Assembly: GCA_945861925.1 (NCBI GenBank)
Contig: CAMAWO010000005.1
Span: forward strand, 1-40,346
Origin: Bifidobacterium breve
GTDB taxonomy: Bacteria; Actinomycetota; Actinomycetes; S36-B12
Direction of reading: 5' to 3'
Length of the DNA stretch: 40,346 nt
Shown: in pieces, positions 24,611-32,290 of the stretch
Layout: each line of letters opens with the position of its first letter
Numbering within the stretch: the first letter of the stretch is position 1
Program-made: the position numbers and the translations under genes
Notes under the pieces: generated by a model
Told to the model about the DNA's origin: nothing
The model's input: only the letters and a program-made list of their open reading frames with translations
Databases searched by the model: none

Positions 24611-24896
24611 TTGTGGAACAGAAATTATCCGTCAAGGTCAGTGGCAACGACGCTGGCGCAGGGGAGGGAGCCTGGGCATCGTCCGACAGGTTCGCATGAG
24701 CGGGTGACGTATTCATGCCCCATGCTCGCATCGTCTTGCGAGCTGACCGAAGGTGACTCATGCGGATGCCGGTTGCGACTCCCGCCAAGGCGATTGCCAA
24801 GACAGTGAGGTCGTCGCTGAGCCCGCGTCGGGGTGCGTGAGTCGGCCGAGACGTAGTAGGCGACGAGAACCTTCTCGACCGAGTGATTGCCGACGG

Positions 24897-25133
24897 CCTG
24901 TCGCGGGAAAGTGGTCTCCACACTGTCAAATGCTGCGTCGTCGGCTTCGAACTCCTGCGCTAGGCGGGCCGCAACGTCTTCGGTGATCACCTAGCCGTCT
25001 GGCGTGGTCCTAGCAGTCCACCGACCGTCGACACCGCCATCACCTCGAGCACCCGGCCAGACTCATCATCCCCATGGAAGATGAGTCGTTCCTGCCGTCC
25101 TTGCTCAGCAGGTTCCGCTACCCGACACTGGAC
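24897..25133 (-). pseudogene. Degenerate third copy of the TA locus (toxin middle fused to antitoxin N-terminus)
   Basis: QERLIFHGDDESGRVLEVMAVSTVGGLL followed directly by ITEDVAARLAQEFEADDAAFDSVETTFPRQAVG. Nucleotides 24904-25022 closely match 31904-32022, and 25039-25130 match about 32130-32240. Confidence 0.7.
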
Positions 25134-25152: not shown

Positions 25153-26469
25153 ATGTCGACCACGATCGCCACCGACCTCGCGCGCCTGGACCGCCTACCC
25201 CGCTGGCCCTGGACGAATGGTCTGCTCGCAAACCTCGGTGGCTCGTTCTTCTTCGCTTTCTTCGACATCGTGGTCATCGGCGCAGCCCTGCCGGTCATCA
25301 TCACCGATTTCGACGTGAGCGCGTCTGCAGCAGCGTGGGCCGTGACCGTCAGCCTCATCGGTCTGGTCGTCGGCGAGTTCCTAGGCGCGACCCTCGCCAC
25401 GCGAAAGGGCCGGGTCTTCACGCTCAGAACCGCACTGTGGGTCTTCAGTATCGGCATGATCCTCAGCGCCTGCGCTCCCGGACTCGGCTGGCTCATCGTC
25501 GCGCGATTCATCGCGGGCATCGGGACCGGCGCCGATATCGCAGTCGCTGTCACCTACATATCGGAGATTTGCCCGGCGCGTATGCGGGGCAAGATCACCG
25601 GATTCACCACCGTCTGCGGATATGTCGGCATCGCCATCGTGCCGTTTCTCGCCGCTATCCTCCTTCCCCAGTTCACCTGGGGCTGGCGCGTGCTGTTCGC
25701 CTTCGGTGCACTCGGTGCAGTCGTCCTCGTTCTCACGCGCCGTCACATGCCGCCCTCGCCACGATTCCTCGCCGATCATGGCGAGGAGCAGGAGCTCTCA
25801 GCACTCGTCGATCAGGCGGAGGCCCGGGTGCGCGCCAAGGTCGGCGAACTGCCCCCGCTCGCTGAATCGTTGTCGGTCGATCGACCCGACTCTGCGTCGA
25901 CAGGGAAGCGTCGTTGGGCGCTCCTCGCAGTGCTCGCCATCGCGTGGATCTTCTACTACTTCGGCAACTACGGCTGGCTCGTCGCCGCTCCCACCATCCT
26001 CACCCAGAACGGATTCGGCCTCGCGAGTTCTTTGGCGTTCATCGCGGTTGCCAACCTCGGACTCATCGTCGGCGCCATCGGTGCGTTTGTTATCTCTGAC
26101 CGCTTCGAGCGCAAGCGAATCCTCCTCCTTGCCCTCCTTGTCTGGGCGCTGTCCCTTTCGGCCATCGGCATCATCGGCACGCAGGCGTCAATCGCGATCT
26201 TCGGATTCATCGCCGCCTTCACGATCGGACTCGTCGTCCCGACGTTCTACACCTACACAGCAGAGAACTTCAGCAATCGGATGCGCCCGGTGAGCATGGC
26301 ATTCACCGACGGCATCGGTCACCTCGGTGCGGCCGCAGCACCCATCATCCTCATCGGAATGACGCTGCAGAACGCGTTCCTCGCTATGGCCGGATCCGGT
26401 CTCGTGACAGCGGCGCTCCTGCTGCGATCACGCAGGACGAAGGGACGAACACTTGAGGAGCTAGCCTGA
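25153..26469 (+). CDS. MFS transporter (sugar/metabolite:H+ symporter type)
   Basis: 12-TM pattern; FFDIVVIGAALPVI, ARFIAGIGTGADIAVAVTYISEICPARMRGKITGF, GRTLEELA end. Confidence 0.9.
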   Translation: MSTTIATDLARLDRLPRWPWTNGLLANLGGSFFFAFFDIVVIGAALPVIITDFDVSASAAAWAVTVSLIGLVVGEFLGATLATRKGRVFTLRTALWVFSIGMILSACAPGLGWLIVARFIAGIGTGADIAVAVTYISEICPARMRGKITGFTTVCGYVGIAIVPFLAAILLPQFTWGWRVLFAFGALGAVVLVLTRRHMPPSPRFLADHGEEQELSALVDQAEARVRAKVGELPPLAESLSVDRPDSASTGKRRWALLAVLAIAWIFYYFGNYGWLVAAPTILTQNGFGLASSLAFIAVANLGLIVGAIGAFVISDRFERKRILLLALLVWALSLSAIGIIGTQASIAIFGFIAAFTIGLVVPTFYTYTAENFSNRMRPVSMAFTDGIGHLGAAAAPIILIGMTLQNAFLAMAGSGLVTAALLLRSRRTKGRTLEELA

Positions 26470-26525
26470 GCGAACGCCAGCCCTCCTCGACGCTGAAGGC
26501 GCGATTCGACCGATCGGTGATTCCG
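26440..26525 (+). repeat. 86-bp imperfect direct repeat, copy 1 (3' end of MFS gene plus downstream)
   Basis: Aligned without gaps to 27434-27519, 69/86 identical by eye; both encode GRTLE(E/D)LA* plus about 60 bp downstream. Confidence 0.85.
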
Positions 26526-26710: not shown

Positions 26711-27130
26711 TCAGGTCGGCTTCCACGGATCGACGAGGGTGATCCCGGTGTGCTCGAAGTCCTTGACGTTGCGGGTGGCCAACGTCGCGTGGTGGGCGCC
26801 GCAGATGGCGGCGATCTGCGCATCGAACCCGTCGATAGGCAGTCCCCGCTGGTCGCGGCGATGGACAAGCGACGCGTAGGCGGCCGCTGCGTCGTGGTCG
26901 AAGGGGATCACATGATCCTCGAACGCGGTGAAGATGTCCGTGGCTGTCCTTCGGAGCATGACCTTGCGCTGGCCCTCGGGGAGCCGTTCGATGCCGTAGA
27001 GGATCTCGGCCACCGTGATCGACGTAGTGAACAGTTCTCTCGGGCTCTGTCCCAGCACCCATTCGCGCACGACGGCCGACGGCGACGGCTTCATCAACTC
27101 GGAGACGACGTTGGTGTCGACAACGATCAT
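26711..27130 (-). CDS. vapC: PIN-domain toxin, VapC/FitB type
   Basis: MIVVDTNVVSELMKP, SITVAEILYGIERLPEGQRK, GLPIDGFDAQIAAICGAHHATLATRNVKDFEHTGI. Confidence 0.92.
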   Translation of the reverse strand: MIVVDTNVVSELMKPSPSAVVREWVLGQSPRELFTTSITVAEILYGIERLPEGQRKVMLRRTATDIFTAFEDHVIPFDHDAAAAYASLVHRRDQRGLPIDGFDAQIAAICGAHHATLATRNVKDFEHTGITLVDPWKPT

Positions 27131-27372
27131 GCCGACAGGTCTGCCGCCCGAGCCGGCGTCGTCCGAGCCGGGACCTCGAGATCGACGCCGCCGAGATCGC
27201 CAAAGCGTTCCATCAGGGTGACGAGCAGGCCCGGATGCTGGTCCGGCGCCGTGACCGCCTCCACCAGGATCGCGCGGATCTCAGACTCCATCGAACGACC
27301 GTGGGAGGCGGCCCGCATGCGCAGGCGCTCCTTCACGTCGTCGTCCAGGTTTCTAATACTCACAGCGGCCAT
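27127..27372 (-). CDS. vapB: RHH antitoxin, VapB/FitA type
   Basis: MAAVSIRNLDDDVKERLRMRAASHGRSMESEIRAILVEAV; stop overlaps the vapC start. Confidence 0.88.
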   Translation of the reverse strand: MAAVSIRNLDDDVKERLRMRAASHGRSMESEIRAILVEAVTAPDQHPGLLVTLMERFGDLGGVDLEVPARTTPARAADLSA

Positions 27373-27433: not shown

Positions 27434-27519
27434 GAGGGCCGAACGCTTGAGGATCTGGCCTGAGCGAGGGTCAGCGCTACTCGATGCTGGAGGTGCGATT
27501 CGACTGTTCGCTGATCCCG
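27434..27519 (+). repeat. 86-bp imperfect direct repeat, copy 2
   Basis: See 26440-26525. Confidence 0.85.
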
Positions 27520-27788: not shown

Positions 27789-30164
27789 TCAAGGACAGGA
27801 TCGAGAATGGAGGGGCTCGGTGAAACCGAGTGACCGGTAACCCTTCATCCGCTTGGGTAGCGACGACGCCAGGACCGGGACAAGCTCGTCCACGTAGTCG
27901 TGGACCTCGGCGTGGTCCTTTCCCGGCCAGGTGCGAAGGATGCGCCCGGTGTATTGGACGACGCGACCCTTGAACGCGATCGGTGCGGCCAGGAACAGGG
28001 TGTCCAGTCGCGGACAGTCGAATCCTTCGCCGACGTAGGGTCCCGTCGCCACGATCAGCAGGGGTGCGGCATCGTTGGCGTTCGCGCCAAGCCGCTGCAT
28101 CGCATCGGCTCGCTCGCGTGCCTTCAACCTGCCGGTGAGCACGATGGGGTCCAGGCCCTTCGCCTTGAGGAGGTCCGCGACGCGGTCGACGTGCGCCGTC
28201 CACTGCGTGAGAACCATGCAGTTGCGCTGACGGTCCAAGGCTGTGATCACGTCCGCGACGACCTGTTCGATACGCGCCGGGTCGGCGATCAGGTCCCGGT
28301 AGATGGCGGCCATGCCCCCGGGCGCCTGGCGGTCGGCGTCACCGACATACCGGAAACCGGTCGTGTGGAGGTGGAGCACCCTGTCGATCCCCGATCCGTC
28401 ATTCTCGTCGGTTCCCGGTAGCTGGCCTACCGCCGGCAGGACGACATCGATGACATGCCGGACGGGGCCGAGTTGCTGGGCGATCAGGTCATCGAGCCGG
28501 TCTCGTCGGTATGGGGTCGCGGTCAGTCCGATCCAGTACCGGGCGGGGATCTGCTTGACCACGGCCTCGAACGCCGCGGCGGGGATGTGGTGGCACTCGT
28601 CCACGATCACCTGCCCGTAGCCCTCGGTGATCATGCGTACGTCGCCGCGTCGCGCCAGCGTCTGGAGCGTGGCGATGTCCACCTGATGCGAGCGCCTGGT
28701 GCGACCCCCGCCGAGCTGGCCCGCCTTGACGCCGAGGAGCTCTCCGATGCGGGCCCGCCACTGGTCGGCGAGCGCCTTGCGGTCGACCAGGACGAGGGTC
28801 GACGTCTGGCGCCGGGCGATCAGCGCGCACGCCATAACCGTCTTGCCCGCTCCCGGTGGCGCCACCAGGACGCCGAGGTCATGCGGCTCCAGAGCATCGA
28901 GTGCGCGGGCCTGCGCCGGTCTGAGGGTGGCAGTGAACACCACTTCGATCGCGGCACCGGTCACCGTCTCGTCGGTCATCTCGATCGTGGATCCCACCTC
29001 TTCGGCGAGGGCCTCGACCATCCCGAGGAGTCCGCGGGGCAGGACGAGGTCTCCCTCGAGGGTCTCATCGAAGGACCGGATGAACCGCGGGATGTTCCAC
29101 GTTGAGCGTCGCTGGCGCTGCCGTTCGTCGAACTCGGGATTTCGCAGGCTGGCTGCGTGCATGAGCGTGGACGCGAGCGGCGGGGTCAGATCCTCGCCGC
29201 GGACCACGATGGTGGCGCCTTTGACGACGCGGATGAATGCGGGCGTAGGAACCTGAATGCGGGTCGCGCGGGCCGGGGAGATCCTGGCCGCCCGCGTCCC
29301 GACGGAGGGATCACCGAGCCGGCCCACCGCACGCGAGACCTCCCGCGGTGACATCCGGTCAAGCGTCGACAGGTACGCCCACTGGTCGTCGTGGGGCTCC
29401 ATCGTCGCCAGGTCGAGGAACACCGTTGTCCCACGCCGCCGGCACGTCCCCTGCAGCGGCGCGGCGATCAGATTGCCGAAACCGCCGACGGGAAGGACGT
29501 CCTGGCTGGGGAACAGCCGGTCGTACGCGGCCAGGCTCATCCGCCCGCGGATGGCCATCGCCTCGCGCACCAGACCCATGCCCAGGCGTCGCGCCTCCTG
29601 CGCCCCGATCGCGTCCACGAAGAACACCCAGACGTGAGCACCAAGCCCGGACTGGCTCACCTCCAGAGCAGCGGGCACGCCCTGCGCACGCGCCGCCTTG
29701 AGGTAGGCAAGCGCATCGAGCATGGCCTGCCGGCCATCGAAGTCGGCAGCCAGCCAGTTCGTGCGATCACCGGGAAGCAATGGGTACAGCCCGATGTGCC
29801 GCTGGCCCGCCAGATGCTCGGCGATCACCTCGGGAGTCAGCGCCAGATGCCTGACCGAGCTGCGATCCATTCCCTTGCGCCAGCCGCCTTCGACCGCAGG
29901 CATCCAGCCCGCCTGACCGGAACGCGCGTTGTTCCAGCGCACGGCGTAGACATCGGCCCGCGCCCGGAAGAGGTCGCGGAAGAAGTCCACCTTCGCGCGA
30001 GCCTCACTCGCCTGACTCAGAATTCGCGGATGCGTCGAAGCCTGCTGCTCCGGCGATGGTGGGGCAACCTCCTGCGGCGTCATACGAAGCAACCCGATGA
30101 GTCGTGCGTTCTCCGACTTCAGGCGCGCCACCTCGGCGCTCAGCGCCGCAAGGTCAGGCTCCAC
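27789..30164 (-). CDS. TOTE-like archaeo-eukaryotic primase fused to SF2 helicase
   Basis: Primase: [10 protein letters not shown] (DxD), [15 protein letters not shown] (SxH-like), [22 protein letters not shown]. Helicase: [46 protein letters not shown]-terminal coiled coil. GTG at 30164 preceded by TACTCT-GCGGTC. Confidence 0.88.
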
Positions 30165-30316
30165 GACCGCAGAGTAGCTCCGCGATCGGTCACCCCGTCC
30201 GCCGTTGCGTGATACCGGGCGCCGGGCACCGTTGTGTGGGGTGACGGGACCGTACGATGTCGTCGTGAGAATGCTCATCAAATCTCAGTCGTCGCCCTCT
30301 TCGACGGCGGGAGTGC

Positions 30317-31370
30317 ATGATGGCCACTAATCGGCAGCGCTGGCAGGCCGCCAGCCGCACCCGCAACAGCGCACTGCAGTCGCTGCGCGGAGCCCGACAG
30401 CAGCACACCACCACCGGGACCTTGGGCTTGCCATCCTTGACGGTGGCCGGATGGCTGCGCCGCTGGCTCGAGGACGTCGCCCGGCCCACCGTCCGCCTTT
30501 CGACGTGGCGCGACTACGTGACCCCGGTCCGCCGGCACCTGATCCCGAGCCTGGGCGGCCAGAAACTGGCGCGGCTGACGCCCGGCGACGTCCGAGCCAC
30601 GCACCAGCGCGTCGGTGTCCGTGTCCGCGGTGAACAAGGCGCACCGGGTGCTTCGCCCGGCACTGTCCGATGCCGAGCGCGAGAGCCTCGTCGGCGCAAC
30701 GCCGCCCGCCTCGTGCGCACGCTCACGATCGTGTCACCGCGCCGCGCCCTGTCGGCCGGCGACGTCCGGCGGATCCTGGCCGCATCCAGGGCCCAACCGC
30801 GGGACTCCCGGTGCATCGCGGCGCTGCTCACCGGGGTGCGGCAGGGAGAGTTGCTGGGGTTGCAGTGGGACCGGGTCGACCTCGATGCCGGCACCGCAGA
30901 CCTCGCGTGGCAAGTTGCATGCGCTGGGCTACCTGCACGGCCGCCGCCGCCGATCCACGGGCCATGGATGCGGGAAGCCGCGTGCCGGCTCCCACCCCGG
31001 CCCAAGAGCTCCGCCGGGAGGCGCGTCATTCCCCTGCCGCCGATCCTCGTCGACGCCCTCAGGCGACGCGCCATGACCCCTCCCCCTTCGGGCTGGTGTG
31101 GTCGACCAGCGACGGCGGACCGATCCTCACCCGCGACGACCTCGCGGCCTGGCACGCCCTCCTCCAGTGCGCAGGCGTGCCCCGCTGCCCTCTGCACGCG
31201 GCCCACCACGCCACCGCGACACTGCAGTAAAAACAACCTCCGGATCGACATCACCGTCATCCAGTCGATCGTCGGCCACGCCCAGCCCCTGACCACCCAG
31301 CGCCCGAAAACACGCCGACCTGACGATGAGTGAGAATGCCCTCACCCGGCTCGCCGACCACGCCACCTGA
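30317..31370 (+). pseudogene. Phage-type tyrosine integrase, frameshifted and catalytically dead
   Basis: N-terminal TVAGWLRRWLEDVARPTVRLSTWRDYVTPVRRHLIPSLG. SAVNKAHRVLRPALSDAERESLVG lies in another frame. LLTGVRQGELLGLQWDRVDLD; HAAHHATATL in a third frame; IVGHAQPLTTQRP; HADLTMSENALTRLADHAT* in a shifted frame. Confidence 0.85.
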
Positions 31371-31728: not shown

Positions 31729-32043
31729 CTATCCAGCCTTCTTGACGAGCTGCTCCAGCGCCTCGCGCGCCAGAGCCGACACGGTGGTCCCACGGTCAAC
31801 TGCGAGGCGCTCGGCCCGTTCTCGCACTGATGGGGACAGGCGGAACGTCACTTGCGGCGAGGTACCCGAACCTCCTGCAAGCGAAGGCCGGCCGGCCTTT
31901 CGAGGGAAAGTGATCTCCACACTCTCAAGTGCGGCGTCGTCGGCTTCGAACTCCTGCGCCAGGCGGGCCGCATCGTCTTCGGTGATCACTTGGCCGTCTG
32001 GCGTGGTCCATGCGGCGGTCATTGCCGCCTTCTTGCCGCTCAT
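31729..32043 (-). CDS. RHH/CopG-like antitoxin (copy 2 of the TA family)
   Basis: MSGKKAAMTAAWTTPDGQVITEDDAARLAQEFEADDAALESVEITFPRKAGRPSLAGGSG...FRLSPSVRERAERLAVDRGTTVSALAREALEQLVKKAG. Confidence 0.7.
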   Translation of the reverse strand: MSGKKAAMTAAWTTPDGQVITEDDAARLAQEFEADDAALESVEITFPRKAGRPSLAGGSGTSPQVTFRLSPSVRERAERLAVDRGTTVSALAREALEQLVKKAG

Positions 32044-32290
32044 CGCTTCGCCTCCTCGTACAACGTCCGCCATTTGGGTCGCAGATCCATCGCACGGATC
32101 ACCAGCAGTCCGCCGCCCGTCCGCACCGACATCACTTCGGGCGCCCGGCCAGACTCATCATCTCCAAGGAAGACGAGCCGTTCCTGCAGTCCATGCTCAG
32201 GAGGCAGAATCGCCTCCGCTACCGGGTCGGCGAGGACCTGACGTACTCGGCCCGCCCGATCCGGTGCTTGCGCGCCGACTGAGTGAACTC
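32040..32290 (-). pseudogene. Frameshifted cognate toxin of copy 2
   Basis: EFTQSARKHRIGRAEYV breaks frame near 32231-32248, then VRQVLADPVAEAILPPEHGLQERLVFLGDDESGRAPEVMSVRTGGGLLVIRAMDLRPKWRTLYEEAKR*. Confidence 0.65.

Follow-up and report, generated by a model that had tools for sequence, protein, structure and literature searches.

The window analysed here, a 40,346-nucleotide stretch of a Bifidobacterium breve assembly (GCA_945861925.1, contig CAMAWO010000005.1), contains an intact gene under purifying selection whose product joins an archaeo-eukaryotic primase (AEP) domain to a superfamily 2 (SF2) helicase. Judged by its sequence, this AEP-helicase belongs to the class of primase-polymerase (Prim-Pol)-helicases found outside clustered regularly interspaced short palindromic repeat (CRISPR) loci, the closest class described so far, and its relatives are associated with mobile genetic elements and with toxin-antitoxin and defence genes. 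We tentatively read it as an accessory, horizontally moved enzyme with a role in conflicts among DNA elements or in defence, an explanation to which we give somewhat less than an even chance. The source assembly consists of 334 contigs and is 87.6% complete and 6.2% contaminated; because it is fragmented and slightly contaminated, the exact host of the window is not certain.

The open reading frame (ORF) occupies positions 27789-30164 of the minus strand and comprises 791 codons without an internal stop or frameshift. Its GTG start codon at 30164 is preceded, ~13 nt upstream, by a GGAG, and an alternative in-frame TTG at 30281 would give a product of 830 aa. A preliminary description made from the letters of the window had placed at these coordinates a single polypeptide with a coiled coil, a primase and an SF2 helicase. 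Both the position and the composition held up when the ORF, its Pfam matches and its motifs were examined:

27789..30164, minus strand: AEP-helicase coding sequence, 791 aa, GTG start, intact
30075..30164, minus strand: N-terminal helix, predicted for residues 2-27, coiled-coil-like (AlphaFold2 helix and heptad-like translation)
29334..29993, minus strand: AEP-TOTE primase domain PF22548, residues 58-277
29736..29744, minus strand: motif I, DFD, catalytic D141 and D143
29634..29651, minus strand: motif II, S172-GLGA-H177
29412..29414, minus strand: motif III, third Asp D251 (FLD), aligned with FVD of 7nqd
28506..28928, minus strand: N-terminal lobe of the SF2 helicase (ResIII), XPB/RadD-like, residues 413-553
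28839..28847, minus strand: Walker A, GKT, residues 440-442
28590..28601, minus strand: Walker B, DECH, residues 522-525
27933..28241, minus strand: C-terminal lobe of the helicase, residues 642-744

The search with the TOTE AEP model of Pfam that had been proposed for this protein matched PF22548 with an E-value of 1.1e-72 (244.7 bits against a cut-off of 27, model positions 2-228 of 230), and the PADLOC PrimPol model matched at 2.3e-73. The solved relatives of the primase domain are the core structures 7nqd and 7nqf of the Marinitoga CRISPR-associated Prim-Pol (CAPP), and the alignment with 7nqd (E 1e-9) covers motifs I, II and III. The signatures of the AEP superfamily (DhD in motif I, an sxH-like motif II and hD in motif III) appear as D141/D143, S172/H177 and D251, so that the DxD and SxH motifs are intact as first claimed. 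The third catalytic Asp, whose absence had been named beforehand as a point that would speak against the prediction, was also found: we take D251 as the putative residue because it aligns with the FVD of 7nqd. Of the 49 aligned homologues, 46 conserve each of D141, D143, H177 and D260 (DQW), while position 251 is D in 41 and N, G or S in five, with Gly in one aligned copy from a metagenome-assembled genome.

The helicase part matched ResIII (2e-25), DEAD (8.5e-9) and Helicase_C (2.1e-5), and its closest solved structures are XPBII (2.5e-17), Rad25 and RadD. The SF2 signatures of Walker A and B and of motifs III, V and VI are present (GKT and DECH, TAT at 548-550, TGxxxGEGFD, and QxxGRxxR at 737-744), in agreement with the complete helicase proposed earlier. 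The N-terminus of the translation shows a heptad-like LxxLxxExxRLxxExxRL, and the AlphaFold2 helix over residues 2-27 has a block predicted local distance difference test (pLDDT) score of 69-79 inside an otherwise poor model (mean pLDDT 47 for the full protein, built from 8 sequences), on which no fold search was based. The protein is probably able to unwind and copy DNA.

A copy with 97% identity is present at locus L032 (CAMDKQ010000124.1) of G003, a sister genome within the genus. Comparison of the two copies by the Nei-Gojobori method gave a synonymous divergence (dS) of 0.079 and a nonsynonymous divergence (dN) of 0.0156. The resulting dN/dS of 0.20 for the whole gene (0.08 for the primase domain and 0.19 for the helicase) shows that it is under purifying selection, in line with the selection for function proposed before. 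The shared DNA extends over the block from FitB through FitA and the AEP-helicase to the start of the integrase, at 93-95% identity, and outside this block the genomes differ. These neighbours are as follows:

27127..27372, minus strand: FitA-like RHH antitoxin, intact, downstream on the same strand (PF22513, 2.7e-20)
26711..27130, minus strand: FitB/VapC PIN toxin, intact (PF01850, 4.7e-15)
30317..31333, plus strand: tyrosine integrase in divergent orientation, degenerate, core split across frames

The earlier picture of pseudogenised mobile DNA around the gene was thus right for the broken integrase and for the RHH/Brn-like fragments at 24.2-25.1 and 31.7-32.2 kb, and wrong for FitA and FitB. 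As for conserved core genes, a single block was found nearby, the heme cluster, which reaches hemL at ~22.2 kb; there synteny with a genome of the same genus stops, and the contig used for comparison also ends. Two near-duplicate stretches, 24894-25112 and 31893-32204 (117 nt at 91% and 101 nt at 85%), are remnants of RHH/Brn-like antitoxin-toxin genes and bracket the segment with the MFS gene, FitAB, the AEP-helicase and the integrase. Closer in, FitAB is bracketed by 85-nt direct repeats at 26441-26525 and 27435-27519 (81%) that consist of MFS-gene 3' sequence, which suggests a duplication or insertion event.

Among the homologues of CAPP outside CRISPR loci, which are typically found in mobile genetic elements and transposable elements, the commonest architecture is Prim-Pol with helicase (PMC8211822). 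The fusion of Prim-Pol to helicase in our protein is that of CAPP_A type 3 and its non-CRISPR relatives (Nat Commun 2021, PMC8211822). In contrast to CAPP, the gene is flanked by FitAB and a dead integrase, and a direct-repeat search found no CRISPR-like array in 22.2-33.7 kb; no cas genes were recognised among the neighbours examined, for which no dedicated cas scan was made. The catalytic core of MpCAPP (PDB 7nqd, 7nqe, 7nqf) aligns with our primase over motifs I-III, but MpCAPP has an N-terminal TPR, lacks the SF2 helicase and is tied to Cas1-Cas2 (PMC8211822). RefSeq applies the name 'TOTE conflict system archaeo-eukaryotic primase domain-containing protein' to the same domain family and layout, including the homologues in Escherichia coli islands; the name comes from the domain and not from a tested system. 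Under the exact family name we found nothing in the literature. The earlier label of an uncharacterised system holds for the function, which is predicted only, and not for the architecture, already described (PMC8211822) and named by RefSeq.

The family is sporadic in the phylum, with carriers in 28 of the 397 sampled genomes and one copy in the source genome. Plasmid records gave 311 matches, 91 of them over at least 80% of the query. When the homologue from an Escherichia albertii plasmid (38% identity to the window protein) was used as query, 683 of 5,426 complete E. coli genomes matched over at least 80% of its DNA and a further 1,155 matched partly. No relative turned up in two scans of viral contigs, and among the matches listed in phage records the similarity covers about the helicase half only, at 25-30% identity. 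Genes of this class are very widespread: many E. coli genomes have one, as do plasmids from several phyla. Their enzyme architecture is confidently assigned, and their function is predicted only.

The survey of neighbourhoods proposed earlier located homologues in mobile elements and in defence and toxin-antitoxin clusters. On plasmids the gene is accompanied by defence genes (CBASS; type I restriction-modification with a nucleotidyltransferase and a Mov34 protein; TIGR02677/78/80), by toxin-antitoxin genes (RES-Xre, ParDE, HipA) and by mobility genes (Tn3 genes, triple tyrosine recombinases, single integrases). In plasmids of E. albertii and Pantoea (L077 8379-14316, L160 7379-11286) it has a recombinase on one side and, on the other, a Tn3 transposase or the N-terminal part of one. 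E. coli islands inserted at different sites carry the gene behind yfjI and gp2/yfjJ, and in the K-12 island CP4-57 the same position after yfjI-yfjJ is occupied by abpB-abpA. AbpAB is an anti-phage pair with a reported response to complexes of single-stranded DNA and protein (PMC10732053). It shares the island position and contains a helicase, but it consists of two genes (nuclease and helicase) on the opposite strand and has no primase; we claim no homology.

If the enzyme does act in conflict between DNA elements, the XPB/RadD-like helicase would load on unusual DNA, such as single-stranded, branched or replicating invader DNA, and would use ATP hydrolysis to move along it or open it. The Prim-Pol domain fused to the helicase could then lay primers on the exposed strand or copy it, and this action may disrupt replication of the invader or signal to a neighbouring toxin. 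Several Pfam families recur near the gene and are missing from the families listed for the control: AbiEii (4), AbiEi (3), integrase (3), and Fic and ParE (2 each). PIN was found three times in each set. Neighbouring ORFs matched 147 PADLOC models at 1e-10, against 25 for ORFs elsewhere in the same genomes (131 ORFs in each set, 18-20 actinobacterial genomes).

Several observations weigh against a role in conflict or defence. The PADLOC figure counts overlapping models rather than genes and gives a direction only; toxin-antitoxin and defence genes are in any case clustered on mobile elements; and several of the inspected E. coli copies are degraded remnants. Moreover, copies in Pseudomonadota often abut recombinases or a Tn3 transposase, and our confidence is limited because this adjacency fits service to the element about as well.

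Such service is the main rival, which we consider somewhat unlikely: an enzyme that primes or restarts replication of its carrier element, or converts incoming single-stranded to double-stranded DNA, with no anti-phage role. Copies directly beside triple tyrosine recombinases, the copy between a recombinase and a Tn3 transposase, a Tn3-like DUF4158 at another locus and an adjoining integrase in Paraburkholderia and, degenerate, in the window all agree with it. So does the nearly fixed spacing of the E. coli copies after the DUF3987 gene yfjI and gp2 in islands at different sites, and AEPs are common as replication enzymes of mobile elements (PMC5862659). However, the helicase is an SF2 protein of the XPB/RadD/UvsW type and not of the hexameric replicative type, many carriers have replicons of their own, the gene also lies far from replication genes in toxin-antitoxin and defence clusters, and in the window it is still under selection despite the dead integrase.

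The preliminary description had the gene standing alone. There is indeed no nuclease partner in the window, but for the family this is misleading, since homologues recur beside toxin-antitoxin genes and five lie directly downstream of AbiEii. We surveyed AbiE adjacency in 34 actinobacterial genomes that carry the AEP domain (the source and 33 others). In five of these, AbiEii is the gene immediately upstream of the AEP-helicase, in the same orientation and at most ~100 nt away (L115 in G137; L116 in G234, with a partial AbiEii; L119 in G152; L128 in G127; L008 in G070). Under random placement ~0.03 such cases would be expected, a figure that ignores island clustering, and three of the five belong to one family and are thus not all independent. 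AbiEii also lies within a few kb of the gene in three genomes (G003, G262 and G254), and at L034, fetched separately, AbiEi-AbiEii is downstream. An AbiEi-AbiEii-AEP-helicase operon is possible; titles and abstracts gave no evident report linking AbiEii to a primase-helicase.

In a tree of 43 rows, well supported branches force four or more changes between the AbiE-linked proteins and the rows with other toxin-antitoxin partners, and the AbiE-linked proteins are also scattered among unlabelled rows; the link therefore arose repeatedly or was often lost. Partners vary by lineage: AbiEi-AbiEii in several actinobacterial lineages, FitAB in the window, XRE/ImmA/PIN in Pseudonocardiales, and a nucleotidyltransferase with a small partner in Kribbella. 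The AEP-helicase could be a DNA-sensing or DNA-copying third component of toxin-swapping cassettes, which, on invasion, would recognise or produce some DNA product and so release the linked toxin, a proposal that we regard as unlikely. The abpBA position in E. coli and the AbiE adjacency in Actinomycetota lead to two directly testable ideas, that the enzyme provides defence by itself or that it is a partner of toxin-antitoxin genes, and either, if true, would mean that bacteria use primer synthesis for immunity outside CRISPR.

In other settings Prim-Pols reprime synthesis beyond lesions, and among solved helicases the nearest are XPB/Rad25 and RadD, which act in repair; both points would suit a chromosomal enzyme of DNA-damage tolerance (repriming and fork remodelling), acquired by transfer and serving the host. 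We find this quite unlikely, given a family that is sporadic, mobile, frequently lost and located near toxins and mobile elements, and a source genome with other XPB/RadD-like helicases besides its single copy.

Membership in a TOTE system (TPR, OB, TBP, Effector; PMC12458937) in the strict sense, suggested by the name and score of the Pfam domain, is highly improbable, as none of the 34 genomes has a match to the TBP family (PF00352), a model that a very divergent TBP could escape. Nor was a TPR-OB/CSD partner found among the Pfam-scanned neighbours, a scan that covered part of the window ORFs. The assignment to the TOTE-conflict type thus stands for the domain and falls for the system: because PF00352 matches no TBP in these genomes, the window protein has only the AEP-TOTE domain in common with it.

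In Pseudonocardiales we also considered a pair of ~120-aa and ~390-aa genes without Pfam match, directly upstream of the AEP-helicase (L034 869-2415, L035 8405-9942, L036 8398-9929), as an obligate operon. This candidate was rejected because the 390-aa family is absent from the source genome and occurs in only 3-4 of the 34 carriers, there on other contigs. Members of the 390-aa family are widespread; the one in Trichormus comes after an HNH gene. Downstream, in three genera of Pseudonocardiaceae (L035 12572-14406, L036 12529-14363, L038 12421-14249), the AEP-helicase is followed by an XRE regulator, an ImmA/IrrE peptidase and a third small protein, which has no Pfam match and looks PIN-like by eye.
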